Below are positions 2,633-29,607 of a stretch of DNA of 64,000 nt, one piece after another. This DNA is from Methylotenera mobilis JLW8 (GTDB lineage: Bacteria; Pseudomonadota; Gammaproteobacteria; Burkholderiales; Methylophilaceae). The stretch spans positions 1,612,001 to 1,676,000 of the forward strand of contig NC_012968.1 of NCBI RefSeq assembly GCF_000023705.1, written 5' to 3'. Made by a program: the position numbers and the translations under genes. A model generated the notes under the pieces. That model made no database searches. It saw nothing but the letters and a program-made list of their open reading frames with translations, and was not told the origin of the DNA. How positions within the stretch are numbered: the stretch's first letter is position 1; every line of letters starts with the position of its first letter.

Positions 2633-2635
2633 TTT

Positions 2636-7962: not shown

Positions 7963-7963
7963 C

Positions 7964-9112: not shown

Positions 9113-9122
9113 GTAATACAAA

Positions 9123-9740: not shown

Positions 9741-9771
9741 AATTGGGTCTCCGTTAAATTATAGAGTTGTA

Positions 9772-12700
9772 TCAATGGTCTTTATTTCTATACAAAAGCT
9801 CATATAATAAAGGCAATACAAGTAAAGTCAGTAACGTAGCTGACAATATCCCACCGATTACGACTGTAGCCAAAGGGCGTTGGACTTCAGCGCCGGTGCC
9901 GGTAGCAATCGCCATCGGAATAAACCCCAATGATGCTACTAATGCGGTCATCAAAATAGGCCGTAATCGCGTTAGAGCACCTTCTTGAATCGCCTCCAAT
10001 AATGGTTTTCCTTCGTCACGAAGCGCCGTGATAAAACTGATCAGCACTAAACCATTCAATACCGCCACGCCTGATAAAGCAATAAACCCAACACCTGCCG
10101 ATATGGAGAGTGGTATACCCCTTAGCCACAAGGCCAATACCCCGCCAGTGAGTGCAAACGGAATACCTGTAAACACAATGAGCCCATCGCGAAAGTTTCC
10201 AAACATGGAGTACAACAATATTGAAACCAGCAATAACGCTAGAGGGATAACTACTTCTAATCGCGCTGTGGCTGATTGCAGCTGTTCAAAAGTACCGCCC
10301 CAAGTTAGCCAATATCCAGAAGGTATTTTGACTTCCTGTTCGATACGTTGCTGTGCTTCAGCCACATAAGAACCTATATCGCGATCTCGTACATTAGCTG
10401 TGACAACAACACGACGTTTTCCATTTTCTCGACTGAACTGGTTTGGACCTGGTGCTAAATCAAGTGTTGCAACTTCCCCTAACTGCAAATAGCTAGCTTT
10501 GGCATTCTCGCTACTAACCGGCAGTCGTATGGGTATCTGCTTGAAAGCAACCATATCTACCCTGAGATTTTCTGGGAGTCGTACGACAATATTAAAGCGA
10601 CGGTCGCCTTGGAATATGGCTCCAGCTTGTTTGCCGTTCATGGCAATCGATATTGCTTCCTGCACTTCTGTGATGTTGATGCCGAGGCGTGCAATCTTTT
10701 CACGATCAATATTAACGGTGAGGATAGGCAAACCAGTCGTTTGCTCTACCTTCACATCTTCACCACCAGGAATTTTGCTTAAAGTTGCTGCTATTTTTTC
10801 GGCGGTACGATTCAAGGTATCCATATCATCACCAAAGATCTTAACGCCTACATCACTACGAACACCTGAAATCAATTCATTAAAACGCATCTGAATGGGT
10901 TGGGTGATTTCATAGTTATTACCTGGAACCGCTTCTACTGCATGCTTTATTTTAGCAATCAATTCATTTTTGCTTAAATTAGGATCAGGCCATTCTGACT
11001 TCGGTTTAAGCATGATGTAATTGTCTGCCATATTCGGCGGCATAGGATCACTAGCAATCTCAGCGGTACCTAACTTGGAAAATATCCTTTCCACTTGTGG
11101 AAACTGCATCACAGTATGCTCAATCTCACGTTGCATTGATAATGACTGAGATAAGCTGGTTCCAGGAATCCGAATAGGCTGTATCAAGATGTCGCCCTCA
11201 TTGAGATTGGGCATAAATTCACTACCCATACGACTCACCATTAATCCACTCAAAATAACTGATACCAGCGTAACGGTAAGCACCAAAGCTTTATTGCCTA
11301 TAGACCAATGGAAAATCGGCTCATAGGCACGCTTAGCCCATGCAATGAATACATTCTCCTTTTCCGTCACAGCACCAGTGATGAATAGCGCAATTGCCGC
11401 TGGAATAAAAGTGACTGAAAGCAACATTGCACCTAATAGCGCAATGACTACAGTAAAGGCCATAGGATGGAACATCTTGCCTTCAACCCCAGCTAAGGCA
11501 AATATCGGTAAGTAAACAACCATAATAATGATCTGCCCATATATCAAAGGTCGTCTAGCTTCCCTTGCAGCAGCGAATACTTCTTGAAAGCGTTCTTCAC
11601 GATTCAAGGTGCGACCTAAAATCGTTTGCGAATGTGCAAGCCTACGCATGCAGTTTTCAACAATCACAACAGCACCGTCAATAATGATGCCAAAGTCTAA
11701 AGCACCTAGGCTCATTAGATTGGCACTGACTTTACCCGTGACCATGCCTGTAAAGGTAAATAGCATTGCTAATGGAATAATGAGCATTGTTATTACGGCA
11801 GCACGAAAGTTGCCCAAAAACAGAAATAGCACAGCCACAACCAAAAGCGCACCTTCTGAAAGGTTCTTTTTAACCGTATTGATTGCTTTGTCGATTAGGA
11901 TAGTACGGTCATAGACTGTTTTAGCTACAACCCCAGTGGGTAGCGTCTTGTTGATCTCTGAAATTCTTTTATCGACTGCAGCAGAAACTGTACGGCTATT
12001 TTCACCAACCAACATGAAGACGGTACCTATCACAACTTCTTCGCCATTCTCGCTGGCAGCGCCACTTCGCAATTCTTTGCCAAGCTGAACATCAGCAACA
12101 TCTTTAATACGTATGGGGATTCCTAGCTTAGTAGAAACCACCACGTTATTGATATCGCTCATAGAGGATAATTGACCTGGCACCCTAATCAGGTATTGCT
12201 CCCCTGACTTTTCGATATAACCCGCACCCATATTGGCATTGTTATTTTCCAGTGCTTCTACGACATCTTTTAAAGCTAAGCCATGCGCTACTAAACGATC
12301 AGGATAGGGCGACACTTGATATTGCTTGGCATATCCGCCAATAGTATTGATCTCGTTAACACCAGGCACATTGCGTAATTGCGGCTTGATGATCCAGTCT
12401 TGAATCTCACGTAAATCGGTCGGGCTATAAGGTGTGCCACCAGCCTTCAATGCTCCTTCTTTTGCTTCTACCGTCCACATGTAGATTTCCCCTAGGCCAG
12501 TAGAGGTCGGTCCCATCTCAGGAAGAATACCTGCAGGCAGTTTTTCCTTGGCCTGACTAATCCGCTCATTGACCAACTGCCTAGCAAAATAGATATCAGT
12601 ATGTTCCTTGAACACTACCGTTACTTGAGATAAACCGTAACGTGAAATGGAGCGTGTCTCCTCTAGACCAGGCAAGCCTGACATCGCAGTTTCGACTGGA

Positions 12701-12900
12701 TAAGTAATACGCTGCTCGGCTTCCAAAGGTGAATAACCTGCAGCTACTGTATTGATCTGCACTTGAACATTAGTAATATCAGGTACAGCATCAATAGGTA
12801 ATTTCTGGTAACTGAACACCCCTAAGGCAGCAATAGCTAAAGCTATCAGCATGATGAGCCAGCGTTGATTTACAGAAAAGCGGATGAGTTTATCAAACAT
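9772..12900 (-). CDS. czcA: CzcA-type heavy-metal RND pump
   Basis: A 1042-residue trimeric inner-membrane proton/metal antiporter, full length for the family. The TM4 signature reads LGALDFGIIIDGAVVIVEN, with two Asp and one Glu in the arrangement typical of the Co/Zn/Cd class (HME1). The N-terminal IDAVPDITNVQVQI motif and paired periplasmic loops are present. It follows the adaptor gene by 11 bp and precedes the CDF gene by 31 bp. It exports divalent cations from the periplasm or cytoplasm through the CzcC channel. The substrate class is inferred from the signature and gene order. Confidence 0.9.
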   Translation of the reverse strand: MFDKLIRFSVNQRWLIMLIALAIAALGVFSYQKLPIDAVPDITNVQVQINTVAAGYSPLEAEQRITYPVETAMSGLPGLEETRSISRYGLSQVTVVFKEHTDIYFARQLVNERISQAKEKLPAGILPEMGPTSTGLGEIYMWTVEAKEGALKAGGTPYSPTDLREIQDWIIKPQLRNVPGVNEINTIGGYAKQYQVSPYPDRLVAHGLALKDVVEALENNNANMGAGYIEKSGEQYLIRVPGQLSSMSDINNVVVSTKLGIPIRIKDVADVQLGKELRSGAASENGEEVVIGTVFMLVGENSRTVSAAVDKRISEINKTLPTGVVAKTVYDRTILIDKAINTVKKNLSEGALLVVAVLFLFLGNFRAAVITMLIIPLAMLFTFTGMVTGKVSANLMSLGALDFGIIIDGAVVIVENCMRRLAHSQTILGRTLNREERFQEVFAAAREARRPLIYGQIIIMVVYLPIFALAGVEGKMFHPMAFTVVIALLGAMLLSVTFIPAAIALFITGAVTEKENVFIAWAKRAYEPIFHWSIGNKALVLTVTLVSVILSGLMVSRMGSEFMPNLNEGDILIQPIRIPGTSLSQSLSMQREIEHTVMQFPQVERIFSKLGTAEIASDPMPPNMADNYIMLKPKSEWPDPNLSKNELIAKIKHAVEAVPGNNYEITQPIQMRFNELISGVRSDVGVKIFGDDMDTLNRTAEKIAATLSKIPGGEDVKVEQTTGLPILTVNIDREKIARLGINITEVQEAISIAMNGKQAGAIFQGDRRFNIVVRLPENLRVDMVAFKQIPIRLPVSSENAKASYLQLGEVATLDLAPGPNQFSRENGKRRVVVTANVRDRDIGSYVAEAQQRIEQEVKIPSGYWLTWGGTFEQLQSATARLEVVIPLALLLVSILLYSMFGNFRDGLIVFTGIPFALTGGVLALWLRGIPLSISAGVGFIALSGVAVLNGLVLISFITALRDEGKPLLEAIQEGALTRLRPILMTALVASLGFIPMAIATGTGAEVQRPLATVVIGGILSATLLTLLVLPLLYELLYRNKDH

Positions 12901-12911
12901 AGCAAGGTTCC

Positions 12912-14456
12912 TTAATCGTCATGGGTCGCGCTGGCTTTGCCAAGTTCGGCCTTAACCAGATAGCTATTTTGGGCGGCGTATTTTTCACCAGCATTCAACC
13001 CACTCAGAACCTCAACGTATTTGTCATCACCACGACCCAGTGTCAGTGGACGAACCTCAAATAAATCCCCATATCGACCAAATACGACTTTGCCTTCATC
13101 CATGCTTTGCAAGCCTTCAACCGATACTGCCAGCGGAACTTCAACTTCGTCCGCCTGTAATTCAATGTTCACTGGGAGGCCTGGCAACCATACTTTGTCA
13201 GCATTTTTTAGTACAACTCGTGCCATTGCAGTACGAGATTGTTCTCCTACTAATGCGCCCACATAAGCTACTGTGCCTGTAGTCTGAGCTTCAAAAGCGG
13301 TCGCTCTAACCGTCACTTTTTGACCAACTTTTACAGCATTCACATCCTTGGCATAAATGGTCATTTCAGCCCATAACGTCGATAGGTCGGCCACGACAAA
13401 GATACTTTCATCGCCGTTCAATACTTGCCCTGCTGAGATTTGTTTATCAGTGATCACACCATCAATGGGCGATTTGATTTCATAACGGGTTAGATTATTA
13501 CTAGCACCTAGACCTGCCCCTATAGATTGCAGCTTTTGCTTTGCTCTTTGCAGACTGATCTCAGCTTCTTGCAAATCCTGTTTTTCTTGCAGATAATCCT
13601 GTTCCGCTGAGATTTTCTCTTCCCAAAGTTTTTTCTCACGCTCATAGGTCACTCTTGCAAGATCTAGCCGCTTTTGCGCAGCCATAAGGTCGCTACGTTG
13701 ATCAGCGATACCTTGGCTTGAAACCACTACCAGCAACTGACCCTTATGCACTTTATCGCCAGCATTAGCTGATACAGACTCAACAATGCCATTCAGACGA
13801 GGTACGACCCTTACACTCTTGTCTGCATTCAGTTTGATTTCGCCCATTAAGTTTAGGGTCGTTTTGATGCGTGCAGGACCTGCGGTGAGTATTTCCACAC
13901 CATTTAGGGTGAGCTGACGATCTGTCATGGTCACTCTGCCTTCAACCTGCTCGTAAGCAAATTGATAGTGTTTGCCGTTATGCTCGGAATCAATACTGAC
14001 TTTGAATGAATGCGGTTCCTCGACAGCACTGTTACTTTTGAGATAATCCGCTTCTTTTACAAAACTGAGCTTTTCCGGATGACGGCCTAATCTATTTACA
14101 GTAAACGTCACATTCGATGTGGCAGGATCAAGTAGCTTGCCATCTTCATAGGTATAGACTCTGAACTCTGGTGTAGATTTTTGATTGCTAATGACAACTT
14201 CTAGACCATAGCTGTTCTGTGTAAATATTTTGCCAGCATGTGGGCCTTTAGGTAGTTCTTTTGCTTGCTCTTCATGTTGGTGACCATCCAGCTCTTCGTG
14301 AGTGGTCGATTGTTCTGAACTTTCTTCCTCACCGGATTTTGGCTTATTTGATTGCAAAATCAAGTTTCCCAAGATGATGCCAATTAGGATAACGATAATA
14401 ATTAATAATGACTGCTTGCTTGAAAGTGTAGATTTTATTTTTGAGTGTATTGTCAT
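12912..14456 (-). CDS. czcB: CzcB-type periplasmic adaptor
   Basis: A 514-residue membrane-fusion protein. An N-terminal membrane anchor (about residues 17-33) is followed by a His/Glu-rich stretch (EESSEQSTTHEELDGHQHEE) that could bind metal. Then come the lipoyl half-motifs (SVSANAGDKVHKGQLLVVVS, and IKSPIDGVITDKQISAGQVL), a coiled-coil hairpin and beta-barrel domains. It bridges the RND pump and the outer-membrane channel. AGGAGG lies 6 bases before the ATG, and the gene starts 9 bp after czcC ends. Confidence 0.88.
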   Translation of the reverse strand: MTIHSKIKSTLSSKQSLLIIIVILIGIILGNLILQSNKPKSGEEESSEQSTTHEELDGHQHEEQAKELPKGPHAGKIFTQNSYGLEVVISNQKSTPEFRVYTYEDGKLLDPATSNVTFTVNRLGRHPEKLSFVKEADYLKSNSAVEEPHSFKVSIDSEHNGKHYQFAYEQVEGRVTMTDRQLTLNGVEILTAGPARIKTTLNLMGEIKLNADKSVRVVPRLNGIVESVSANAGDKVHKGQLLVVVSSQGIADQRSDLMAAQKRLDLARVTYEREKKLWEEKISAEQDYLQEKQDLQEAEISLQRAKQKLQSIGAGLGASNNLTRYEIKSPIDGVITDKQISAGQVLNGDESIFVVADLSTLWAEMTIYAKDVNAVKVGQKVTVRATAFEAQTTGTVAYVGALVGEQSRTAMARVVLKNADKVWLPGLPVNIELQADEVEVPLAVSVEGLQSMDEGKVVFGRYGDLFEVRPLTLGRGDDKYVEVLSGLNAGEKYAAQNSYLVKAELGKASATHDD

Positions 14457-14465
14457 GTTCGCCTC

Positions 14466-15731
14466 CTAAGGCTTTACTGCAGTTTCAGGCATAGCATCAC
14501 CGAGGATTCGTTTGATATCAGCTGATGCCTGATGCGCGTCTAGTAATGCATTGATGTACTGTGACTTGGCCTGAAACAAAGTACGCTGTGCATCCAGTAC
14601 ATCTAGATAGTTAAATTTGCCAAACTCAAAACCTTTGGTGGCGGCATCAAAGGCACTTTGCGCACCAGGCAGAATCTCTTTCTGCAATGTATCAACTGAT
14701 TGCCGCGCTGTACTTAGCCGCTCGTACGCGCCACCCAGTTGAGTTTCCAACTGAACTCTAAATGCCACCAATTCGTCACGAGCTTTATCTGTGCGGCTGA
14801 CCGCTACTTGCAGATTGCCTTGGTTACGGTCAAAGACTGGAATGGGTATGGAGAAACCTAATACAGCTTGATTTAACCCAAGCTCCTCATTACGTTTCGC
14901 GCCAATACTTAACGTTAAATCTGGTGTGCGCTTTGTGTTTTCGATATTGACTTGTGCTTGGCGAACATCAATTTCAAGTTTTGCACGTTGAATAGAAGGT
15001 GCATTGTCCAGCATGTTTGAGAGTTCTTGCAGTGAAGGTATCGCAGGAATATTCTCTATCTGGCCTACCGTCTGCATGAATTTTGGGAAAGGGCTACCCC
15101 ACAACGAAGCCAATCGCTTACGTGCTGTATTGAGTGTACTCGTTGCTTGATTCGCTTCGATTTTAATGCCGGACTCTGCAACCTTTGATTTGGTTTCTTC
15201 TACAGGAGATATTTTTCCTGCCTGTACTTTCTTTGATGCAGCCTCTCTTGCTTGCTTCGCAACATCTAGTGAAGAGGTAGCCAGACTCAGTCGCTCTTGG
15301 GCCGCTAGTACACTATAAAATGCAGCCTGTACATTGGCATAGACTTCAGACTTTTTGATAGCAATATCCGTATTCACCGCATCATATCGAATGTCTGCAG
15401 ACTTAATGCGATTATCGCGTTTATTTCCCATCTCTATAGGTTGTTCTAGCAGTATAGTGGTTTGCCGCGTTGAGTTACGAGCATCTTCCATCAATGTAGA
15501 GATCGATGGATTCGGTCTTGTAGCGGCTTGCATCCTTACGCCAGCTATTGCCTCAAGCTCTCGTAATGCAACCGACAGGTCAGGATTAGCACTTAATGCT
15601 AGGTGAAGTGCATCGGTTAAGGTAATGCTGCCTGTAGGCTCCAACAGGGTTGAGTCTGAAGTATTCTCATCAGCCTTAACCACCGTTGAGACTGATATTA
15701 GAAAAATGAAAAATATATAAAATATGCGCAT
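14466..15731 (-). CDS. czcC: CzcC-type TolC-family outer-membrane channel
   Basis: A 421-residue protein with a signal peptide (MRIFYIFFIFLISVSTVVKA). The two OEP repeats are rich in long amphipathic helices (ALHLALSANPDLSVALRELE; later FEFGKFNYLDVLDAQRTLFQ, a typical C-terminal OEP motif). I start at the ATG at 15731, which has GGAGAG just upstream; the open frame extends 12 bases further without a better start. It forms the exit duct of the Czc pump. Confidence 0.87.
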   Translation of the reverse strand: MRIFYIFFIFLISVSTVVKADENTSDSTLLEPTGSITLTDALHLALSANPDLSVALRELEAIAGVRMQAATRPNPSISTLMEDARNSTRQTTILLEQPIEMGNKRDNRIKSADIRYDAVNTDIAIKKSEVYANVQAAFYSVLAAQERLSLATSSLDVAKQAREAASKKVQAGKISPVEETKSKVAESGIKIEANQATSTLNTARKRLASLWGSPFPKFMQTVGQIENIPAIPSLQELSNMLDNAPSIQRAKLEIDVRQAQVNIENTKRTPDLTLSIGAKRNEELGLNQAVLGFSIPIPVFDRNQGNLQVAVSRTDKARDELVAFRVQLETQLGGAYERLSTARQSVDTLQKEILPGAQSAFDAATKGFEFGKFNYLDVLDAQRTLFQAKSQYINALLDAHQASADIKRILGDAMPETAVKP

Positions 15732-15824
15732 TGAACTCTCCAAAATAAAAAGGACGAATTCAGCGAGACGAAGTGACTTAAATCTTTACGCTAGATAAAT
15801 TATGAGGTTTGACTTCCCGCTGAA

Positions 15825-16187
15825 TTAAACAGCGGCAAGCCAATTAGGACGATCAGGATGACGCGGAGTGACGTCAGCATAAGAGTAAACAATGGTGATA
15901 ATAGTTATGCTCTCTGTCACAGCCGATGGTAGTGACAATATAGAAACCATAGACTTCATAGATCCAAGATGGCAATAAGGACAATCATTATCTGTATCAG
16001 ACTTTGAATGATCAGCGCCAATGGCGGGTAACTGAGACAGAGATTTATCGCTATCCGCCTTATTAGCATCGTGGCTTAAATAAGAGACCTTCAAGCCAAG
16101 CTCATGCGGGCAGTACTGTGCAGCAACTGCCCATGTAGATTCCATGAGGAATACTACAATCAAGAGTTTTAGAAAGATTTTAATCAT
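15825..16187 (-). CDS. czcI: CzcI-like periplasmic protein
   Basis: A 120-residue protein from the ATG at 16187 (MIKIFLKLLIVVFLMESTWA, a signal peptide). The mature part has Cys and His residues suited to metal binding (QYCPHE, DCPYCHLG) and ends DRPNWLAAV. Size, position ahead of czcC and the Cys/His pattern match CzcI, a small protein of the czc operon linked to its regulation. An upstream in-frame start would overlap the cusA-like gene. It is 93 bp ahead of czcC. Confidence 0.6.
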   Translation of the reverse strand: MIKIFLKLLIVVFLMESTWAVAAQYCPHELGLKVSYLSHDANKADSDKSLSQLPAIGADHSKSDTDNDCPYCHLGSMKSMVSILSLPSAVTESITIITIVYSYADVTPRHPDRPNWLAAV

Positions 16188-16233
16188 TAGGTTAAGTATA
16201 TCAGAGTGAAAGTAATTCTCAATTAGTATCGAT

Positions 16234-19200
16234 TCAGGATTTAGCATAGCTCCGCTTCAGAAGGATATAAGCTGCGGGCAATACGAACAGTGATAATAAT
16301 GGAGCTGTCAGCATTCCTCCTACCATAGGCGCTGCAATACGGCTCATTGCCTCCGAACCTGTACCTGTGCCAATTAAGATAGGTATCAAACCAGCTAGAA
16401 TCACTGCCACTGTCATGGCTTTTGGCCTAACCCTAAGTGCTGCCCCTTCAATCAAAGCAGCATAATAATCCTCTTTATTATTGAGTTTACCGGCAGCTTT
16501 ATAACGCGCTATTGCGTCATCTAAATACACCAACATGATGATGCCAAACTCTGCAGCCAGACCCGATAAAGCAATCATGCCCACACCACTTGCAATCGAG
16601 AAGTGATGTCCTAAGAAGTACAGAAACCATACCGCTCCTACTAATGCAAACGGCAAACTACCCAAAATAAGCAAAGCCGGTGTCATGCGCTTAAAGGCTA
16701 GAAATAACAAAATAAAGATAATACCTAAGGTCATTGGCACAACGTAACTTAGCCTTTTGGATGCTCGTTCGAAGTATTCAAACTGACCAGACCATGCAAG
16801 CGAATAGCCCGCTGGCAATTGCAACTCTTTATCCAACATCGCTTTCGCATCTTTAACAAAGCTAACCAAATCTCGATCATGAATATCTACATATACCCAA
16901 ACATTAGGCCGTGCGTTCTCACTCTTAATCATAGGTGGGCCATCAGTCACTTTAACCTCAGCCACTTCACCTAAGGGCACGGTAGCTCCTTGCTCAGTGA
17001 TGATAGGTAATGACTTTAGCTTTTCTACAGAATCACGTAACTCTCTTGGGAATCGAACATTGATTGGAAAGCGAGCGAGCCCTTCAATTTTTTCACCTAT
17101 GTTATCACCACCAATCGCAGTAGATACCAACATCTGCACATCATCAATATTTAAGCCGTAACGTGCGATTTTTAGCCTATCAATTTGCACATCAATGTAA
17201 CGCCCGCCAGTGACTCGCTCAGCAATCACCGAGCTGGCTCCTGGTACTTTTTTCATGAGCCTTTCGACTTCTTCACCCAGCTTTTCTAAGGTAGCTAAAT
17301 CAGCCCCACCAATCTTGATACCAACCGGACTTTTAATGCCGGTAGATAGCATATCGATACGGTTACGAATTGGCTGCACCCATACGTTGGCCATACCTGG
17401 GATTTTCAGTCGTGCATCAAGTTCTTTGACTAGTTTTTCAGGTGTCATACCTGCACGCCATTCATCACGAGGCTTAAATTGAATGGTGGTTTCCAACATC
17501 TCCAATGGCGCGGGATCTGTCGCTGTTTCAGCACGACCGGTTTTACCAAACACTGACTTTACCTCAGGTACGGTTTTGATGAGTCTGTCACTCAATTGCA
17601 GTATTTCAGAGGCTTTGGAAACAGACAGCCCAGGCAACGCCGTTGGCATATAGAGCAAGTCACCTTCATCCAAGGGTGGCATGAATTCACTACCAAGCTT
17701 ACTTAGAGGATATAACGTGATCAGCACTAATATTAGGGCGACGCCTAATGTAACTTTTGGGTAGTGTAAGACTTTACTGAGCAGTGGCTTATAAATGGCG
17801 ATCAAGCCACGATTGAGTGGGTTGTCATGCTCAGGTCGTATATGTCCACGAATGAAGATTGTCATCAGCACAGGAATCAATGTCACGGATAATCCTGCGG
17901 CTGCGGCCATCGCATAAGTCTTGGTAAAAGCTAAAGGCGCGAATAACTTACCTTCTTGCGCTTCTAAGGTGAATACCGGAATGAACGACAACGTGATTAT
18001 CAGCAAGGAAAAGAACAATGCCGGTCCAACTTCGCTGGCGGCATCAATAATGACTTTTATGCGCTGACTGTTATTTGGTTCGCCATGCTCATTTTTATAG
18101 TTTTCAAGCTGCCTATGGGCATTTTCTATCATCACAATAGCGGCATCGACCATGGCACCGATGGCAATGGCGATACCACCCAGCGACATGATATTGGCAT
18201 TAACGCCTTGATAGTACATGACGATAAAGCTGACCAGCACACCGATAGGCAAAGCGACAATCGCGACTAGCGCTGAGCGGAAGTGCCATAAAAATACAGC
18301 ACACACCAAGGCCACCACGATGAACTCTTCAATCAATTTGTGCGTTAGGTTATCTACTGCACGTTTAATCAGTTGCGACCGGTCATAGGTAGTTACAATC
18401 TCTACACCTTCAGGCAAGCTCTTCTTGAGGGTAGCAAGTTTGGCTTTCACTGCATCAATGGCTTCTAGCGCATTTTTCCCAGCACGCATCACAATGACGC
18501 CACCTGTCACTTCACCTTCGCCATTCAGTTCTGCAACACCTCGTCTTAATTCAGGCCCGATTTGAATGTGCGCAACATCAGACAAAAGTATAGGAGTGCC
18601 GCTATTGCTCACCATGAGTGGGATGTTACGGAAATCCTCAAGTGATTCTAAGTATCCATGCGCACGAACCATGTATTCAGCTTCCGCGGTTTCCACCACT
18701 GCACCGCCAGTTTCCTGGTTGGCAGATTGAATTGCAGACACGACCTTAGATAGAGGTATACGGTAATTGCGTAACTTATCAGGATCAACCTGTACCTGAT
18801 ACTGACGCACCATACCACCTAGTGTCGCTACCTCAGCTACACCAGGAATGGTCTTCAATTCAAACTTGAGGAACCAGTCCTGTAGTGCTCGCAGCTCTCC
18901 CAAATCATGTTTGCCACTTTTATCTACTAAAGCGTATTCATATACCCAGCCCACGCCTGTCGCATCAGGGCCCAAGCTAGGATTTGCGCCTTTGGGCAAC
19001 TTTGAGGAAATCTGGCTCAAGTATTCCAGTACGCGAGAGCGTGCCCAATATTGGTCGGTACCATCGTTGAATAATATATAAACGAAGGAGTCGCCAAAGA
19101 ATGAATAGCCACGCACAGTCTTCACACCAGGCACGGAAAGCATGGTTGTAGTGAGTGGATAAGTCAGCTGGTTCTCAACAATCTGCGGCGCTTGGCCAGG

Positions 19201-19359
19201 CCATTGGGTACGAATGATGACTTGCGTGTCGGATAAGTCAGGAATCGCATCTAAAGGCGTTTTAAGCATGGCGAATACTCCCCATGCAATCACCATCAGA
19301 GTTGCCAGCAATACCAGCAAGCGATTATTGGCTGACCAGCGGATGAGCTGAGCAATCAT
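16234..19359 (-). CDS. cusA: CusA-type Cu/Ag RND pump
   Basis: A 1041-residue RND antiporter. TM4 reads [20 protein letters not shown], the monovalent-metal (HME4, Cu+/Ag+) signature, unlike the DFGxxxDG form of the CzcA protein nearby. It carries many Met residues in the porter domain and the C-terminal [17 protein letters not shown] motif of CusA. The ATG overlaps the adaptor stop by four bases (ATGA at 19356). It exports periplasmic and cytoplasmic Cu(I) via the CusC channel. Confidence 0.9.
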
Positions 19360-20978
19360 GGTTTGGCTCCCTTCATGCTGCCTTTCATCTCTGGTGCCTT
19401 TTCAACACGGTCAATCATGTATTGCGTTGGCATCCCAGGTTTTTCTGGTGCTTCTGCTTTCAAATCGAACTCCACTTCATCGTCAGCTTTGAGATTACTG
19501 AGTTGCTTGCTGTCTTTAACTTTGAAGCCCATGGTCATAGATGGCCAACCAAGCTCAGCGATTGGTTCATGATTCAACGTGACATGGTTTGACTTAGGAT
19601 CTACGTCAATTACTTTGCCTCGGCCTTTGGGCATTTTTTCAGCCAACATTGCTGTGTCTTTACTCATTTGTATGTCACTGCTTTGACCCATGCCTTTATC
19701 CATCGCTTTATCTTGTTGGGAAAGTCGCGCCAACACACCAGATAGAGATGCCTCAGAATCAATTAGGAACTGGCCTGAAACCACGACATCTTCGCCTTCA
19801 GCTAAACCAGCTAAAATTTCAGTACGGCTATCTAGCTCCTGTCCTGTTTTAATTTCCACCGGACGATAACCATTCACTTCCTTCACAATCACGACTTTGC
19901 GCTTACCAGTCGCGATAACGCTTTCGGTAGGTACAGACAGCGCTTCGTGCGCTTGCCCTGTGAATTTGACATTGGCATACATGCCAGGGCGTAAGCGGTT
20001 ACCTTTGTTAGGTAATTCGATACGTACCTGCAAGGTTCTGGAGCTGTCGTTCAATATCGGATAGAGATAACCGACTTTGCCTTTGAATACTTCACCAGGC
20101 AGACTTTGTAACTGCACATCTGTGGCAATCCCTGGTTTCAATCTGGCGGCATCACGCTCAGGCACTTCTGCAATCATCCATACTTGGGAGAGGTCGGAGA
20201 TTTGTACCAATGAGCTGCCAGCCATCAATTGACCACCTTGGCGCACACCTAGCTCAGTGACGATTCCCGATGCAGGAGCATATACGCCAAACCTTGGACT
20301 AGATTTACCCGACTTCGTAATGACAGCAATCTCACCTTCAGTCATGCCAAGTAATTTGAGTCGATTGCGTGCAGCCTGTTTGAGAGAGTTATCACTGTCT
20401 ACACTGTTTAGTTCCAGTAAAGCTAGATACTCTTGCTGAGCTGCCAGCAAATCGGGTGCATAGATTTCAGCAATTTTTTGGCCTTTGCTGACTGGGTCAC
20501 CTACAGCGCGAACGGATAGACGCTCTACGAATCCTGGAATGCGCGTTTGCACTACGTAAAAGCGACGCTCGTCTGGCTCGATGCGACCTACAGCTGAAAA
20601 GGATTCACCAAAACTTTTAGTGGATACCTTCTCAAGTCTAATCCCTAAGTTCTGAGCGGTTTGTGATGAAATTGCTACGCCGCCTTCCTCGCCATTGCTA
20701 CCTTCATTGGCATATTTGGGCTCAAGCATCATGTCCATGAAAGGAGACTTACCAGGCTTATCGAACTTCTGATTTGGCACCATGGGGTCATACCAGTATT
20801 TAACGGTTTTGCCGCTACCGTCTTGAACGACTCCATTAATGGATTGGGCTATTTTTGAATCGCTGGCTGATGTATTGCTGCCCATAGGCGATTGCGCGGA
20901 CCTTTGCCCCAAAAGCCAACCTAATCCTGCAACTAGGGTTAGTAAAATTAACACTATTATTAAATGGAGTCGCTTCAT
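19356..20978 (-). CDS. cusB: CusB adaptor fused to a CusF-like domain
   Basis: A 540-residue protein. After an N-terminal anchor comes a heavy-metal-binding segment ([13 protein letters not shown] and [12 protein letters not shown], about residues 60-90). The adaptor core follows, with lipoyl motifs ([20 protein letters not shown]). The last 85 residues are a CusF-like copper domain ([20 protein letters not shown]; then [10 protein letters not shown] with the Trp and two Met ligands). Fusion of the adaptor to its copper chaperone is known in other CusB proteins. It hands Cu(I) to CusA. Confidence 0.88.
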
Positions 20979-21004
20979 TTTATTTCCTTAGTATTTGCGC
21001 TTAA

Positions 21005-21325
21005 TTACTCTGCGTACTTTGGAGACAGCTTCATATCCATGAATGGAGACTGACCGGACTTGCTGAAGTGTCTACCTGGCACCATTGGGTCTTCCCAGTA
21101 CAGGACTTTCTTACCGCTCGCATCTTGCTCCACATTGCTGCCACTCAGGTCATTGGCATCAATTTCATTCGGTAGCTTCACAGCAGGCTTAGCCTCCATA
21201 GGTGTTTCCATCGCGGGCATTTCTGCTTTAGGTGCTTGACTGGTGGCTTCAGTATTTTCTTGTTTAGAACAAGCGGCTACCGCCACTAAGAATGTTGCCA
21301 ATACTAAAATTTGTGTGGTTTTCAT
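21005..21325 (-). CDS. Lipoprotein with heavy-metal-binding motif
   Basis: A 106-residue protein. The signal ends in a lipobox-like VAAC (residue 19), so it is probably anchored as a lipoprotein. A Met/Pro/Glu-rich linker leads to a C-terminal segment (LYWEDPMVPGRHFSKSGQ and SPFMDMKLSPKYAE) nearly identical in layout to the N-terminal metal segment of the adjacent CusB. It looks like a separate copy of that module. It lies between cusC and cusB and probably binds periplasmic Cu(I). Confidence 0.7.
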   Translation of the reverse strand: MKTTQILVLATFLVAVAACSKQENTEATSQAPKAEMPAMETPMEAKPAVKLPNEIDANDLSGSNVEQDASGKKVLYWEDPMVPGRHFSKSGQSPFMDMKLSPKYAE

Positions 21326-21328
21326 GAT

Positions 21329-22636
21329 TTATTCCTTTTCAATTTTTTTAAATAAACGACTATCATTTAATAAATAGCCAATTTTGACGGCAGCGCGTTG
21401 CTTGTCTGTCAAAATTGTCCAGTGGTCTAACTCGATATCCAGAACATCCCGACGAGCGTCCCAGACATCACTAAGTGGCTGTTTGCCAGACTGATAGGCT
21501 GCCTGAGCGATACGTAACTTAGCTTCAGCATTGGGGATAAGTTTTATGATGTGCTCGCTTTCACGGGCTTCAGCTGCTTCAGCATCTGCCATTGCACTTT
21601 CAAGTTCAGAGGAGAGCTCACGCCGTTTGTCTTCGGTCAGCTTGCGTGCCTTCTCGACTAGTACGAGTTTTTCCGCAGTGCGGCGGTCTTGTCGATTAGT
21701 ACGATCTAACTGCAGATCAATCGAAACCTGAAAGCTGAGCATATCGCTGCGATCATTAAACCGCTTGCCATAGCCTACTTCCCAGCCCCAATTACGCTCC
21801 AAGTTGGCTTGGGCACTATCTACATCATATTGCGCAACTTTCTCTGTTTGATGGGCATTACGTACCAATGGATGCTGTTCAAGCGCTGACTGTGTAGCGT
21901 CTTGATTCAAGCTATTAGTCATCACCGGCAGTTCAGACGAGATTGGACGAGATGCAGATTTACCTATCCAGCGCGCTAGAGCAGCACGTGCTTTACGCTC
22001 ATCGCGTTGTGCAAAGATGCGCTTTTCATTGGTCATGGAGGTTTGCGTATCCATGCGCAAGACATCACTGGATTTAGCGCTGCCAGAACTCACACTGGCA
22101 GCCAGCACTTTACGCTCTGCTGTCATATCATCGACTATGCGTTGGTAAAGCTCAGATTTACGCTGCGCCTCATACACATCCAGCCAAGCCAAAGCGACAT
22201 CGCGCTCAATGGTTCTAGCAGTCGCAATTTGCTCAGTGTGGAACTGATCTGCCTCTGCCAGCATCCGGTTTGAAGCGACCTCACGTTTTTTTCGTGGAAT
22301 GATGTCTTGCGAGATTCCAACATTGACCATGGTTTGGTCATCACGGTTATAACGTAAAGCATCACCTGTTGTGACGGGAAGATTAATGACTCCAAACTTT
22401 ACTTTGGGGTCTGGCAGTTGCCCTTCTGCAATGGCCGCTTGGCGCGAAGAGGCAGCTGCATCATCAAGTGATTGCAGCAAGGGCTGGTTTTGTGTGGCTA
22501 ATTGTATGGTTTCAGCTAATGTCAGTGCTTCTTCTGCTTTCGCAGAAGCAACTTTTAAAGACAATGCCAACACCACCATTATGCTAAACCACATGCATAT
22601 TACTCTTGGCGTATAAGCCAATCTGGGGGCGTTCAT
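21329..22636 (-). CDS. cusC: CusC-type outer-membrane efflux protein
   Basis: A 435-residue TolC-family protein with an N-terminal signal region (about residues 14-34) and two OEP repeats (TLAETIQLATQNQPLLQSLD; later AAYQSGKQPLSDVWDARRDV). AGGAGAG precedes the ATG. It is the first of the cusC-lipoprotein-cusB-cusA run, whose spacings are 3, 26 and -4 bp, so the run is an operon. It provides the outer-membrane channel for the Cu/Ag pump. Confidence 0.85.
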   Translation of the reverse strand: MNAPRLAYTPRVICMWFSIMVVLALSLKVASAKAEEALTLAETIQLATQNQPLLQSLDDAAASSRQAAIAEGQLPDPKVKFGVINLPVTTGDALRYNRDDQTMVNVGISQDIIPRKKREVASNRMLAEADQFHTEQIATARTIERDVALAWLDVYEAQRKSELYQRIVDDMTAERKVLAASVSSGSAKSSDVLRMDTQTSMTNEKRIFAQRDERKARAALARWIGKSASRPISSELPVMTNSLNQDATQSALEQHPLVRNAHQTEKVAQYDVDSAQANLERNWGWEVGYGKRFNDRSDMLSFQVSIDLQLDRTNRQDRRTAEKLVLVEKARKLTEDKRRELSSELESAMADAEAAEARESEHIIKLIPNAEAKLRIAQAAYQSGKQPLSDVWDARRDVLDIELDHWTILTDKQRAAVKIGYLLNDSRLFKKIEKE

Positions 22637-22698
22637 GAGAGCTCTCCTAAACTTAAATGTGCAAATTTAGGGCGTAATTACGCCCTAATGGCAACAAT

Positions 22699-23055
22699 TC
22701 AAGCTGGAGGCTTTAACGGCGGGGATAGATCTACGGATTTTTCGGATGAGACAAAACTAGGGAATGAAGCTGTTGCAGAAACAGCCAGGAAATACTTAGT
22801 GGGCGATTCGATTACTGTAACTTGCACGAACTGACAACTTGCACCCATCGCACAAGATTTATGTTCATTACTCGATTTATGCTTGTCTTTACTCATGGAG
22901 GCTTCATGACAGTTTTTCATACCAACCATGCTATCTGAATGCATAGAAGTCATAATCGAATGCGAAGCACATGAAGTAGCGCAAATGGCTGCCAGCGCCG
23001 GGGTTGAAGCCAACGCCAGAATTAACACTATTGCAATTGCACGGAACATTTTCAT
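22699..23055 (-). CDS. Cys/His/Met-rich periplasmic protein
   Basis: A 118-residue protein with a clear signal peptide (FRAIAIVLILALASTPALA). The mature part has many possible copper ligands: CATSCASH, MKNCHEASMS, KSSNEHKSCAMGASC. The C-terminal 45 residues are plain and Ser/Pro-rich. No family is recognised with certainty. It sits upstream of cusC in the same direction, 62 bp away, and may be the first gene of the copper-efflux transcript. A copper-binding or copper-sensing role is inferred from composition and place. Confidence 0.55.
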   Translation of the reverse strand: MKMFRAIAIVLILALASTPALAAICATSCASHSIMTSMHSDSMVGMKNCHEASMSKDKHKSSNEHKSCAMGASCQFVQVTVIESPTKYFLAVSATASFPSFVSSEKSVDLSPPLKPPA

Positions 23056-23117
23056 TATGGAGCTACTCTATCACTTCAAACTTTTTTCAACAAGTTTCTG
23101 TTGGTTCAGGATTAAAA

Positions 23118-23137
23118 GTCTGCTTTGGGCTGAAAGC
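23118..23137 (+). repeat. Intergenic repeat copy 2 (diverged)
   Basis: GTCTGCTTTGGGCTGAAAGC, one base different from the core shared by the copies at 9092-9112 and 26980-27000. It lies upstream of the Cys-rich gene within the metal block. Confidence 0.6.
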
Positions 23138-23318
23138 TGCGACCACATGCGGCTCAATGCGAAATTTCGTTTAATAATTACGAATGGCAGAAAAATCAGC
23201 AAAGCAGAGAATTAGTTTAATAAAGCATTTTCACGTATTTATTATTACACAACTATTTTGAATTTAATTGATGTTAATCAACTAGCTGATGACTTGCGTT
23301 TTAGTTGTTAAGTTAGAC

Positions 23319-23729
23319 TCATATTTCGTCAATTGCCAGCTCATCGAGTATCGGGCAATCAGGGCGCTCATCGCCATGACAACATTTTACTAAGTGTGAT
23401 AATTCAGACTTCATCGCATTCAACTCTTTTATCTTTTGATCTAGCACCTCAATATGTTTGATGGCTAATGACTTGACCTTGCTGCTTGAGCGGTTCTTGT
23501 CACGCCATAAGCTTAACAATGCTGCAATTTGCTTAATTGAAAATCCTAAGTCTCTAGAGTGCTTTATAAATCTCAGCATATGAACGTCACGTTGGTTGTA
23601 GGTTCTGTACCCAGAAATCGTTCTTGATGCAGCTGGAAGTAGCTCTACCTTCTCGTAATGACGAATCATTTTTGCAGATATGCCAGAAGCATTCGCCGCT
23701 TCTCCAATATTGTAAAAGTCATTATCCAT
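23319..23729 (-). CDS. cueR: CueR-type MerR copper-responsive regulator
   Basis: A 136-residue MerR-family protein. The winged helix is at the N-terminus (YNIGEAANASGISAKMIRHY, then YEKVELLPAA, SGYRTY), a long dimerisation helix follows, and the metal loop has Cys residues in the CueR spacing (CCHGDERPDC). It activates copper genes by untwisting promoters with 19-bp spacers; two such promoters lie just upstream, one directing its own gene. It faces away from copZ. Confidence 0.88.
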   Translation of the reverse strand: MDNDFYNIGEAANASGISAKMIRHYEKVELLPAASRTISGYRTYNQRDVHMLRFIKHSRDLGFSIKQIAALLSLWRDKNRSSSKVKSLAIKHIEVLDQKIKELNAMKSELSHLVKCCHGDERPDCPILDELAIDEI

Positions 23730-23808
23730 AAAAAATCCTTACTCTAAAGTTGGGACTGAAACTCATCATCAATCTAAATGTTTATTACTGAATTTATTTA
23801 CCCTAACA

Positions 23809-23839
23809 ATGCTAATGCTTTCCACTATTGTAAGGTCAA
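23809..23839 (-). promoter_or_regulatory. CueR-type promoter for cueR and leftward genes
   Basis: On the minus strand TTGACC (23839-23834) is followed by a 19-bp spacer (TTACAATAGTGGAAAGCAT) and TAGCAT (23814-23809). The long spacer and the ACCTTAC half-site followed by a weaker GAAAGCA match the MerR/CueR promoter form. Confidence 0.65.
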
Positions 23840-23861
23840 GAAGTAATTTAATAAAAAACGC

Positions 23862-23892
23862 TTGACCTTACAATTGTTGGAAGCTTTAGAGT
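23862..23892 (+). promoter_or_regulatory. CueR-type promoter for copZ-copA
   Basis: TTGACC (23862-23867), a 19-bp spacer (TTACAATTGTTGGAAGCTT) and TAGAGT (23887-23892). The spacer carries ACCTTAC-AATTGTT-GGAAGCT, close to the CueR dyad ACCTTCC-N7-GGAAGGT. Transcription would begin near 23899, which supports the later ATG for copZ. Confidence 0.75.
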
Positions 23893-23930
23893 GATTGTAC
23901 ATTCACATTTTCTATAAAGAAGAGCCTATT

Positions 23931-24125
23931 ATGTATATATTAAGAGTACAAAATATGAACTGTGGAGGTTGTGTTAATACAATCAAAAAAACCATTCAAC
24001 AAATAGACGCGTTGGCGGTGATTGATGTTGAACTATCTACAAAAACATTACGTGTTAATTCGGCCATGCCCGAAGCAGTAATTATTCAAGCAATATCTGA
24101 TGCTGGGTTTCAGCCATTACGATAA
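23931..24125 (+). CDS. copZ: CopZ-like copper chaperone (HMA domain)
   Basis: A 64-residue single heavy-metal-associated domain. The copper site is MNCGGC at residues 9-14, and the fold pattern ends with DAGFQPL. I use the ATG at 23931, preceded by AAGAAGAG; an upstream start at 23895 would lie before the predicted transcript start. It carries Cu(I) in the cytoplasm to the CopA-type ATPase two genes downstream and possibly to CueR. Confidence 0.85.
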   Translation: MYILRVQNMNCGGCVNTIKKTIQQIDALAVIDVELSTKTLRVNSAMPEAVIIQAISDAGFQPLR

Positions 24126-24154
24126 ATTTTTATATTCTTAAAAGGAGAGTTGAA

Positions 24155-24484
24155 ATGAATAAAATATTAATTGTTATATTCACAACATTTTTGAGTTTAG
24201 CCTCTTTAGTGTCCTTAGCTAATGACGCACATCACCCAAGTAAAGAGATACAAAAGAGCTATTCTGCAAGAGGCGAAGTAGTGGCTCTGGATACTGAGTT
24301 AAGCAAAGTGAAATTAAAGCACGAACCTGTTCCAGCGCTAAACTGGCCAGGGATGACTATGTTCTTTAAAGTTGCTGATAAGTCACTATTAGATACAGTT
24401 AAAATTGGAGATCAAGTTGATTTTGGGTTCGTAAAAGTAGAAGGTGAATCCCCATTAGTCATCAATATAAAGCCTGTTGATTGA
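24155..24484 (+). CDS. cusF: CusF-like periplasmic copper-binding protein
   Basis: A 109-residue protein with a signal peptide ([18 protein letters not shown]) and the CusF fold. The ligands lie in [20 protein letters not shown] (His, Trp and two Met as in CusF). An AGGAGAG box lies just before the ATG. It resembles the domain fused to the CusB protein at 19356, so the locus carries two CusF copies. It binds periplasmic Cu(I)/Ag(I) for delivery to the Cus pump. Confidence 0.85.
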
Positions 24485-24560
24485 AGAAAGGACGTGGCTG
24501 GATACTAAACATTTTTCGATATTTGGCTCATCTGCATCAATTGTCCCAGGAGCGAAGGTT

Positions 24561-26861
24561 ATGGATATGAAGAACAATACTAATACGATGAAAGATCCAG
24601 TTTGTGGAATGAATGTTTCTGACCAGTCACAACATTCTGCAAAGCATGCAGGAGCAATGTTCTATTTTTGTAGCAATAAATGCAAAGGTAAGTTTCTAGA
24701 AAATCCAGCTCTATATCATCAACCTCAACCTGTAAATGATGACCAAATTTCAGCTGAGTTAAGCGCCAAAGGGACTATATATACATGCCCGATGCATCCC
24801 GAAGTACGGCAGGACTCTCCAGGCGTCTGTCCAAAGTGCGGCATGTCATTGGAGCCAGAGCTACCGAGCCTTGAGGAAGACGAAAGTCCGGAATTAATAG
24901 ATTTTAAACGGCGTTTTTTTTGGACATTGCCATTAACCGTTGTTGTTACAGTTTTGGCAATGTTAGGTCACAGGCTACAATGGTTTGAGATGGCGACTCA
25001 AAGCTGGATTGAGCTCATTATTTCTTTGCCGATTGTATTATGGGCAGGCTGGCCTTTCTTCCAACGAGGCGTCCAATCAATAATTAACCGTAAACCTAAT
25101 ATGTGGACCTTAATTGGTCTCGGTACTTCAGCTGCATTTATTTACAGTGTAATAGCAACAGCATTACCTGATTTTTTCCCAGATTCATTTATCGATATGG
25201 GCCGAGTGTCTGTCTACTTTGAAGCCGCTGCAGTCATCATTTCACTTACCTTACTTGGTCAGGTCCTTGAGCTTAAGGCACGATCACAGACATCTGCAGC
25301 TATCAAATCATTACTGGGTTTGGCACCTAAGTCAGCTCGTAAAATTAATACCGATGGTACAGAGCAGGATGTGCCCTTGACGCATGTGCATGTTGGCGAC
25401 ACTCTTCGCGTCCGTCCTGGTGAAAAGGTACCTGTTGATGGCGTTGTGATTGAGGGAGTTAGCGCAGTTGATGAGTCTATGCTTACAGGTGAACCTGTTC
25501 CAGTGACAAAACGCGTTGGAGATAAACTGATAGGAGCAACATTAAATACAAGTGGTACATTAGTGTTAAGAGCTGAAAAGGTGGGAACTCAAACTGTTCT
25601 TTCAAGTATTGTGCAAATGGTTATGCAAGCGCAACGATCAAGAGCACCTATGCAGCGCATTGCTGATCATGTTGCAGGGTACTTTGTTATAACAGTCGTA
25701 CTTATCTCGCTACTGACATTTTTTGTGTGGGGCGTGTTTGGCCCAGAGCCAAGCTGGGTATACGGGCTCATTAATGCTGTTGCTGTGCTTATTATTGCCT
25801 GTCCATGTGCGCTAGGATTGGCAACACCAATGTCAATTATGGTTGCTACAGGAAAAGCAGCCTCTCAAGGAGTGTTGTTCCGCGATGCAGCAGCGATTGA
25901 AAATTTCAGAAAAATAGACACCATTATTGTTGATAAAACTGGAACGCTAACCGAAGGTAAACCACGGTTTGATCGAGTATTTGCAAATCAAGGGTATACG
26001 GAAGAAGAAGTGCTTCGTCTCGCAGCAAGCTTAGACCAAGGGAGCGAACATCCTTTGGCCGATGCTATTTTGCAAGAAGCTCGTGATCGGAAACTCCGGC
26101 TAGAAAAAGTAGAAAGCTTCGACTCAATCTCTGGCATAGGTGTAAAAGGTATAGTCGGCGGAAGGTCGCTTGCATTAGGAAACAGTGCTCTGATGACACA
26201 AATTGGAGTTTCATATGAAGAGCTAAAGTTACAGGCTGAAAATTTAAGGGCGGAGGGAGCAAGTGTCATGGTGTTGGCAGTGGATGGAAATGTGGCTGGT
26301 TTATTAGCTGTTTCTGATCCTATTAAAGCTAGTTCATTAGATGCGTTAAATATCCTTAGGTCTTTTAACATTCGTGTCATCATGGCTACTGGTGATGGCC
26401 TAGTTACAGCAAAATTTGTAGCTGCTAAATTGGGTATTAGTGAGATCTATGGGGAGGTCAGGCCAGCCGACAAATTAGCATTGGTAGATAAGCTACAACG
26501 TGAAGGAAGAATTGTTGCAATGGCAGGAGACGGTATTAATGATGCCCCAGCATTGGCAAAAGCTAATGTGGGTATTGCGATGGGAACAGGAACTGATGTT
26601 GCAATGAATAGTGCCCAAGTAACGCTTGTAAAAGGTGATCTGCGTGGTATTGCGCAAGCGAGAGCAATTTCTGAGCAGACAATAATCAATATGAAGCAAA
26701 ACCTGACATTTGCCTTTGTTTACAACTCGCTCGGTGTTCCTTTGGCCGCGGGCCTGCTTTTCCCACTTACTGGATGGCTACTTTCACCGATGATAGCGGC
26801 TCTTGCCATGAGTTTGAGTTCTGTTTCAGTAATTGCAAATGCGCTAAGGTTGAAATCTTAA
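24561..26861 (+). CDS. copA: CopA-type P1B copper-exporting ATPase
   Basis: A 766-residue P-type ATPase. The N-terminus has a YHS-like domain ([23 protein letters not shown]) and a heavy-metal-binding segment ([20 protein letters not shown]) in place of an HMA domain. The core has CPC in TM6 ([11 protein letters not shown]), the phosphorylation site [18 protein letters not shown] and [11 protein letters not shown] start at ATG 24561 because AGGAG lies 8 bases upstream; the open frame further upstream begins with TTG inside the preceding gene. It pumps Cu(I) out of the cytoplasm. Confidence 0.9.
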
Positions 26862-28187: not shown

Positions 28188-28354
28188 GTTACCGACTTTA
28201 CACTGCTTTGGTTACCAACTTTAAACGTCAGAGAGCAGTAGATAAAGATTACCCTACAAAAAAGCCCTGATTTCTCAGGGCTTTTTAAATTATCTGTTAA
28301 GACAGACTTTAGTTCTATCGACAGACTTTATTACTCGCCGACAGACTTTATTAA
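28188..28354 (+). repeat. Cluster of five GACTTTA repeats, candidate transposon end
   Basis: Five co-oriented units share (G/A)ACTTTA at 28194, 28217, 28305, 28324 and 28344. The first two read GTTACC(G/A)ACTTTA and are 23 bp apart. The last three read GACAGACTTTA at 19- and 20-bp spacing, and the last two share CGACAGACTTTATTA. Clustered binding sites of about 20 bp next to a boundary are typical of TnsB-bound ends of Tn7-like elements. The last unit ends 26 bp before the amtB stop codon. The exact terminus and any target-site duplication cannot be fixed without the other end. Confidence 0.55.
28259..28286. terminator. Bidirectional rho-independent terminator
   Basis: AAAGCCCTGA (28261-28270) pairs with TCAGGGCTTT (28275-28284) around a TTTC loop, flanked by A- and T-tracts. 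It lies inside the repeat cluster and can stop transcripts coming from the island side or from amtB. Confidence 0.8.
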
Positions 28355-28379
28355 TTTCTATCAATGGCCAATTTAAAGA

Positions 28380-29570
28380 TTAATCATTAGTTGTAGATGG
28401 AATTTTATGAATGGTCAAATCTGCGCCGTCATACTCTTCCTCTGCGGTCAATCTAATACCAACCAATTGCTTCAAGGCGCCATACACAGCAAAACCACCC
28501 ACCAAGGCAACTGTTACACCGGTTGCTGTACCAACCAATTGCGATACAAAGCTTACGCCACCCATTCCACCTAATGCTTTAAGTCCAAAAATACCGGCGG
28601 CTATACCACCCCAAGCACCACATAGGCCATGCAACGGCCACACGCCAAGCACATCGTCAATTTTCCAGCGCTGCTGGGTTAAGGTAAAGGTCAACACAAA
28701 TAGCACGCCAGCAATTGCGCCAGTTGCCAATGCACCTAGCGGATGCATTACATCAGAACCGGCACAAACCGCAACCAAACCAGCTAAAGGGCCATTGTGC
28801 ACAAAACCCGGGTCATTTTTACCCATCACCAAAGCTGCTAAAGTACCACCCACCATTGCCATCAAGGAGTTCACGGCAACCAAACCGCTAATACCTTGTA
28901 CAGCCTGTGCAGACATCACGTTAAAGCCAAACCAGCCTACGGTCAGTATCCATGCACCTAATGCAAGAAACGGAATATTTGACGGTGGGTACGCATGCAA
29001 ACGACCATCTTTACTATAGCGGCCATTACGTGCACCGAGCAAAATCACGGCAGCAAGTGCGATCCATCCGCCCATCGCATGCACCACAACCGAACCTGCA
29101 AAATCATGAAATGACGCACCAGTCGCCACCTTTAGCCACTCTTGCAAACCGTAATGGTTATTCCATGCAATCCCTTCAAAAAACGGGTACACAAAACCAA
29201 CCAAGGTAAAAGTAGCAAACATTTGCGGATTAAATTTCGCACGTTCGGCAATGCCGCCGGAAATAATCGCCGGAATCGCCGCGGCAAATGTCAGTAAAAA
29301 GAAAAACTTGACTAGACCGAATCCATTTTTAGCAGCCAGCACGTCAGCGCCACTAAAAAAATCTACGCCATAGGCAATGCTGTAGCCAATAAAAAAGTAA
29401 GCAATGGTAGAAACTGAAAAATCCACCATGATCTTAACCAGTGCATTGACCTGATTCTTATGCCTGACTGTACCCACCTCTAAAAATGCAAAACCTGCGT
29501 GCATTGCAAGCACCATAATGGCGCCAAGCAATACAAATAAAACATCATTTGCTGAGACTAATGCTTCCAT
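28380..29570 (-). CDS. amtB: AmtB ammonium transporter
   Basis: A 396-residue membrane protein with about eleven helices. It shows family motifs such as MHAGFAFLEVGTVRHKN near the N-terminus, DFAGSVVVHAMGG and a C-terminal cytoplasmic tail (EEEYDGADL). I start at ATG 29570, with AGGTG 6 bases upstream; the GTG nine bases earlier is less likely. It imports ammonium. No glnK/PII gene lies next to it. A sigma-54 promoter and two NtrC sites sit upstream. Its 3' end abuts the accessory island. Confidence 0.93.
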   Translation of the reverse strand: MEALVSANDVLFVLLGAIMVLAMHAGFAFLEVGTVRHKNQVNALVKIMVDFSVSTIAYFFIGYSIAYGVDFFSGADVLAAKNGFGLVKFFFLLTFAAAIPAIISGGIAERAKFNPQMFATFTLVGFVYPFFEGIAWNNHYGLQEWLKVATGASFHDFAGSVVVHAMGGWIALAAVILLGARNGRYSKDGRLHAYPPSNIPFLALGAWILTVGWFGFNVMSAQAVQGISGLVAVNSLMAMVGGTLAALVMGKNDPGFVHNGPLAGLVAVCAGSDVMHPLGALATGAIAGVLFVLTFTLTQQRWKIDDVLGVWPLHGLCGAWGGIAAGIFGLKALGGMGGVSFVSQLVGTATGVTVALVGGFAVYGALKQLVGIRLTAEEEYDGADLTIHKIPSTTND

Positions 29571-29607
29571 TTCAATCACCTATTAACATTTTAAGCCCCG
29601 CAAAATA

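Follow-up and report, generated by a model that had tools for sequence, protein, structure and literature searches.

What placed a run of short GACTTTA repeats directly beyond the 3' end of amtB in Methylotenera mobilis JLW8? The window, the whole 64,000-nucleotide stretch of DNA that was analysed (G000:C1:1612001-1676000, from a genome on a single contig of 2,547,570 bases), was read in the earlier note as switching from accessory to backbone genes exactly at these repeats, and the repeats as the end of a transposon with amtB as its attachment site. The gene content bears out the switch, and we consider 28259-28367 very probably to be the right end and target repeat of a Tn7-like transposon (element B) located at amtB under the direction of a TnsD-type protein. 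The features beside the stop codon are as follows, in window coordinates.

28194..28223, plus strand: outer GACTTTA/AACTTTA units, outside the regular array.
28259..28286, no strand: hairpin with A/T tracts, AAAAAGCCCTGA-GAAA-TCAGGGCTTTTT, lying immediately within the right end and probably an intrinsic terminator (folding, hairpin search).
28301..28363, minus strand: tip of element B's right end with its array of TnsB sites (site pattern, matrix).
28364..28367, no strand: 4-bp direct repeat ATGG, with a second copy at C1:1603610-1603613, directly outside the left tip.
28380..29579, minus strand: amtB, ammonium transporter and candidate attachment gene, its 3' end facing the right end (TIGR00836).

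GACTTTA was present as an exact match on the plus strand at 28194, 28305, 28324 and 28344, with AACTTTA at 28217 (plus strand) differing by one mismatch. The regular array consists of three copies of GACAGACTTTAKTW at 28301, 28320 and 28340, spaced 19 and 20 bp apart. The outer pair (28194 and 28217) is 23 bp apart, stands at a start-to-start distance of 88 bp from the array on the far side of the hairpin, and has no GACAG flank. An arrangement of five regular units was rejected, as only three form the array; the repeats are co-oriented as the earlier note had described, its spacing of about 20 bp applies to those three, and its count of five was overstated. With its final letter at 28350, the last GACTTTA lies 29 bp rather than the proposed 26 bp from the amtB stop codon (28380-28382), and the tip itself is 16 bp away. 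Read from the tip at 28363 inward, the end comprises TGATAGAAATTAATAAAGTCTGTCGG followed by two further AAAGTCTGTC units spaced 19-20 bp; the tip is the T of TGATAG on the minus strand, with a leave-one-out matrix score of 37.5. Three co-oriented GACTTTA copies within 60 bp were seen in none of 500 Markov-simulated windows. The heptamer is enriched throughout the window (17 copies against a mean of 7.5, matched in none of 100 shuffles), so single copies carry little meaning. The amtB reading frame is intact, and its match to TIGR00836 (1.4e-89; 300.9 bits) lies under the model cut-off of 343.3.

A search of the same genome located the matching repeat cluster that a transposon would have at its left side, outside the window at C1:1603563-1603637. 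The left tip TGATAAGAACTAATAAAGTCTGTCG, inverted with respect to the right one, has its first base at C1:1603614, the right tip being at C1:1640363, and it is this inverted, matching left end that confirmed the repeats as a transposon end. Element B thus spans 36,750 bp (36.75 kb; C1:1603614-1640363; window coordinates about -8386 to 28363), with its left end 8.4 kb beyond the window edge. The left end contains the tip site and a second, weaker site (4 mismatches) 70 bp further inward. TnsB-type site arrays (~20 bp) are therefore inverted at both ends, as expected for Tn7-like transposons.

Direct repeats of 4 bp were exact in three of the five two-tipped elements found in this study (ATGG, TAAA and ATAT), with three of four letters matching in the other two. 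The expected 5-bp duplication was exact in none of the five in symmetric register, 4 bp being found instead; when one tip was shortened by 1 bp, 5-bp repeats were exact in two of the five, and the remaining three agreed at 3 or 4 of the 5 letters. The elements may make a 5-bp duplication with unequal tips. To our knowledge, a 5-bp target duplication is stated for all Tn7 relatives. Because that length was not recovered in symmetric register, element B is termed a Tn7-like variant on protein and end features rather than a proven standard member.

A second right end, oriented like that of B and scoring 38.3, lies 7 bases left of B's left tip and defines a further element, A. No left end scoring 12 was found for A from ispD to its right end, and A is on this basis regarded as truncated. 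As this truncated right end abuts the left tip of B, the site has been used at least twice. Excising B together with one repeat copy in silico brought the tip of A to a position 19 bp beyond the amtB stop, within the 12-20 bp range found across relatives (below). Apparent IS3-like transposase remnants were seen by eye between the kdp operon and A's right end (L009:6680-7200).

The proteins and cargo encoded by element B are listed below.

1..1469, continuing past the left window edge (L009:15436-17469), minus strand: TnsB-like DDE transposase, 677 aa (profile match).
1466..2467, minus strand: TnsA-like endonuclease, probable start ATG at 2437 (profile match).
4045..5529, plus strand: TnsD-type target selector, 494 aa, with TniQ and TnsD domains (Pfam, profile, structure).
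5682..6068, plus strand: HTH regulator, sharing a 4-base overlap with the second tniQ (Pfam HTH_3, 8.2e-6).
6065..7396, plus strand: second TniQ protein of 443 aa that may select a different class of target (Pfam TniQ, 6.2e-11).
9123..26861, no strand: metal-efflux cargo (protein family matches).

Searched against Pfam as a single sequence, the TnsB-like transposase matched nothing at 0.001 and DUF7611 only, at 0.051; a profile of three orthologues matched Tn7 TnsB (7pik; E 3.1e-9), and a D...D...E motif was read by eye. A three-orthologue profile of the TnsA-like endonuclease matched Tn7 TnsA (1f1z) with an E of 0.0011 over 64 positions. The TnsC-like candidate fits in position and size and gave weak P-loop/AAA/NACHT matches only, with no clear TnsC family match. 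The selector matched Pfam TnsD (6.6e-31) and TniQ (3.2e-12), and its profile matched Tn7 TnsD (8glu; E 0.0018). Its AlphaFold model (pLDDT 75.8, pTM 0.60) had 8glu as the top Foldseek match (E 2.6e-5); since 8glu covers TnsD residues 1-318 and the model was built from six sequences, the C-terminal half is little informed by this comparison. The HTH regulator has 37% identity over 109 aa to L057:16171-16677 of G062, where the arrangement is the same. Judged from profiles and the structure model, the putative TnsA, TnsB and TnsD of element B are related to the Tn7 proteins.

The cargo, for the most part concerned with metal efflux, comprises an RND pump, membrane-fusion proteins, outer-membrane efflux proteins, a CusF-like protein, a MerR regulator, a P-type ATPase and a member of the cation efflux family, in a scan of protein families that excluded the ORF at 16234-19359. 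Near the left end there is a DUF6527 and ThiF/DUF6791 (E1-like) pair (L009:9853-11432), perhaps a defence or protein-conjugation module. A RES-domain protein is encoded next to the left tip (L009:7770-9065) and a Peptidase_M78-domain protein inside the element (L009:12934-13752).

Is this insertion a single event, or is the position past amtB used by other elements? We searched 52 genomes of the genus, of which 48 had an amtB match; three were dropped with the 3' end missing from the match, and the 45 remaining flanks were combined with five from other genera, chosen for carrying TnsD matches (n = 50). The matrix scan identified right ends in 11 of these 50 Methylophilaceae amtB 3' flanks (9 of 45 in the genus, 2 of 5 in other genera), all 12-20 bp past the stop and in one orientation, while the reverse strand, scanned over the first 150 bp, gave a score of 11 in none of the 50 (best 6.6). 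The lowest positive flank scored 11.5 compared to 10.3 for the best of 578 control windows. Five of the positives had built the matrix and gave leave-one-out scores of 25.9-37.5; the six outside it scored 11.5-30.7, and the three weakest (G068, G143, G115) are uncertain. A strict two-site right-end pattern, applied to 187 genomes of the family, gave 10 matches in 7 genomes and none for the reversed control. Five matches lie directly after the amtB stop (G000, G062, G110, G120, G136), one is element A, and the others (one in G109, three in G107) are without an amtB in the surrounding 1.5 kb.

The intact site could be recognised in four relatives lacking the island (G114, G109, G145, G148), in which amtB adjoins ispD, the two being 0.6 kb apart in G114 and 1.2 kb in G109. 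In the genome of the window, 49 kb separate amtB from ispD; the corresponding distances are 30 kb (G110), 25 kb (G143), 31 kb (G115) and 2.7 kb (G120). In G062 and G068, from another genus, the distance exceeds 100 kb, so ispD marks an empty site within the genus only. Full-length A2-type TnsB was found only in G000, G062 and G109 among the 187 family genomes, and the other right ends at amtB are accordingly orphans or truncated elements. The recurrent position, the lack of reversed ends and a complete element at amtB in another genus (G062) uphold the earlier proposal of amtB as an attachment site.

Beyond the family, 399 genomes of the order contained TnsB at E 1e-40 in six, four of them new, and three of these four had a TnsD match. 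None of the four distant carriers had the element near amtB: the best amtB homologue was on another contig in three and about 0.2 Mb away in one, some contigs being fragmented. These carriers thus lend no support to homing outside the family, except for a single-site remnant in G473. In this genome, from another family, one transposon-like site and a hairpin lie directly after amtB with no island (L074:1496-1560), followed by a nifA-type regulator-like gene (read by eye). A search of amtB DNA against plasmids gave no match.

Three complete autonomous elements (window, G062, G109) were available for comparison, and all three carry both TnsD and a second TniQ. The 41.4-kb element of G062 is located at amtB (tips C1:1803044 and 1844463) with tnsABC and tnsD inside; its second TniQ (L057:16653-17819; Pfam E 7e-12) is near the right end with an HTH gene alongside. 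The element of G109, a member of the same genus, has its tips at C1:510452 and 571226, 0.6 Mb from amtB, flanked by a MarR-family gene and an ORF that matched nothing in Pfam; its second TniQ scored 25.3 bits, under the cut-off of 27. The TnsB of the window element is 58% identical to that of G109 compared to 40% for G062. The second TniQ likewise aligns over most of its length with G109 (118/420 identical, 28%; 150 bits) and over the N-terminal part only with G062 (42/148 identical, 28%; 47 bits). TnsD is overall closer to G062 (43%) than to G109 (39%), with the difference lying in alignment columns 186-430 (44% vs 33%); the N-terminal 185 columns lean to G109 (47% vs 43% for G062), as do the last 80 (41% vs 38%). 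Across these three elements and among the shared proteins compared, the middle part of TnsD is the only one that appears, modestly, to track amtB.

Type I restriction-modification cargo was present in both the G109 (L063:7919-16113) and the G062 (L057:9210-12172) elements. A 2.56-kb two-tipped segment beside amtB in G118 (L151:17104-19668), with no transposase gene recognisable by eye, is possibly non-autonomous. In G107, from another genus, two Tn7-like elements abut with their tips 4 bp apart (L156:3238-3243 = C1:2016238-2016243), and no amtB lies within 1.5 kb of their right ends.

The repeats could instead be a native feature downstream of amtB, regulatory or associated with a terminator, that coincides with the island boundary by chance. 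What favours this are right-end-like sites without a complete island in G120 (2.7 kb to ispD) and G473 (one site), a finding that the earlier note had named in advance as contrary to its own reading and that is borne out to this extent. The orphan sites are read as remnants because the same ends bound the G109 element away from amtB. The same sites, inverted, form B's left tip and both G109 tips, 0.6 Mb from amtB, they are absent from 39 of the 50 amtB flanks, including those of the close relatives G109, G145 and G114, and the flanking 4-mers match exactly in three elements. The G109 element largely refutes a native origin, which we regard as very improbable.

It is also conceivable, and in our view unlikely, that the element is a genuine Tn7-like transposon for which amtB is chosen by the second TniQ, another protein or a DNA feature and not by TnsD. 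The amtB-sited G062 element also has the second TniQ with an adjacent HTH gene, and G109 has both selectors yet sits between two genes, one of them MarR-like. Both amtB-sited elements carry both selectors, so that presence alone cannot discriminate between them. The second TniQ of the window is, however, closer to that of G109 than to that of G062, the opposite of what would be expected of an amtB reader, while TnsD goes the other way, modestly, and 11 loci show a fixed position and orientation. Against a TnsD-directed Tn7-like insertion at amtB stand G109, whose related TnsD is not at amtB, the four distant TnsB carriers, the lack of a clear TnsC family match, the variation of the insertion distance past the stop by 8 bp, and the number of complete TnsD-carrying elements at amtB, which is only two. 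Selection of amtB by TnsD remains the reading that we prefer.

Folding of the 156-nt stretch containing the hairpin gave a z of -4.96. A scan for consensus promoters and terminators called no terminator at 28259-28286, where the T tract lies within the stem. The hairpin search detected a T-tract hairpin 37-87 bp inward of the tip at 8 of 11 right-end loci (G115 weak) compared to 9 of 39 flanks without a right end, and it is also present in the G109 element, away from amtB. Element A, three left ends and two of the three right ends of G107 had none in this search, and the hairpin of the remaining G107 end was weak. Most of these elements probably carry a right-end terminator. Tn7 itself reportedly inserts in the glmS terminator, as the title of a work cited in PMC2918618 has it.

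The ends of Tn7 have an AAAGTC core and TGT tips. Element B shares with Tn7 an AAAGTC core 20 bp in from the tip, end sites that are dense on one side and sparse on the other, insertion in one orientation just past the stop of a conserved gene, and TnsA- and TnsB-like genes and a candidate TnsC-like gene together with a TniQ-domain TnsD. It differs in its target (amtB rather than glmS, attTn7), its TGA tips, its direct repeat of 4 bp rather than 5, the 12-20 bp range of its clade where Tn7 uses one fixed distance, a TnsA and a TnsB that have diverged too far to match Pfam as single sequences, and the presence of a second TniQ.

The two-TniQ Tn7-like elements described in the accessible part of PMC11406308 are parE-, tRNA- or glmS-homing CASTs. 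Element B resembles these, as far as that part goes, in having a long TnsD-type selector for the chromosomal site and a second TniQ, and differs in that the second TniQ is 443 aa. No CRISPR-type repeat array was found in window positions 2400-9200 and no Cas family matched among the element B proteins scanned; within that scope element B does not qualify as a CAST. Two Pseudomonas elements have a TnsB 36.8% (NZ_CP087161.1) and 34.2% (CP027478.1) identical over 98% of the length, with annotated AAA ATPase, TnsD-family and TniQ-family genes beside TnsB in NZ_CP087161.1 and a further transposase gene in CP027478.1. Unlike element B both are on plasmids, and neither a site scan nor a search for inverted repeats found their ends.

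In the literature searched, supplements aside, we did not find amtB described as a Tn7-like landing site. Among the matches listed it occurs in one paper, PMC9938897, and in a reference title only; the accessible portion of PMC10293859 contains neither 'amtB' nor 'ammonium', that of PMC11406308 no 'ammonium', that of PMC8649781 'ammonium' once, about disinfectants, and in that of PMC10949235 an ammonium transporter appears solely as a tagged strain. Further literature searches returned nothing on amtB among the matches listed.

Taken as a TnsD-directed insertion, the locus suggests the following course of events. TnsB would bind the 20-bp-spaced end sites, as their pattern implies, and the TnsD-type protein would bind the conserved DNA of the amtB 3' coding end and direct TnsABC to insert the element 12-20 bp beyond the stop codon with its right end facing amtB; where and in which direction the element inserts follows from the comparison across relatives, and the binding is inferred. 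The insertion would leave amtB intact, the right end supplying a terminator, and the second TniQ is probably used for other kinds of target, e.g., mobile DNA. The older element A would have occupied the same site and been pushed outward on the arrival of B. The genomic comparisons thus mark amtB as the putative attachment gene for this clade, with TnsD as its presumed binding protein. That the clade homes to amtB, staggers its target cuts by 4 bp and replaces the terminator of its attachment gene with one in its right end is a fuller proposition, to which we give roughly even chances.

In these related bacteria, predicted Tn7-like elements repeatedly use the spot just past amtB, and element B would account for the variable island site with metal-efflux genes in Methylotenera. 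If the reading is true, amtB would be added to the safe landing genes of Tn7-like elements, and two diverged TnsD proteins at amtB, together with a relative elsewhere, would offer natural material for working out how TnsD recognises its target. New att-specific systems of this kind would be candidate gene insertion tools for methylotrophs.
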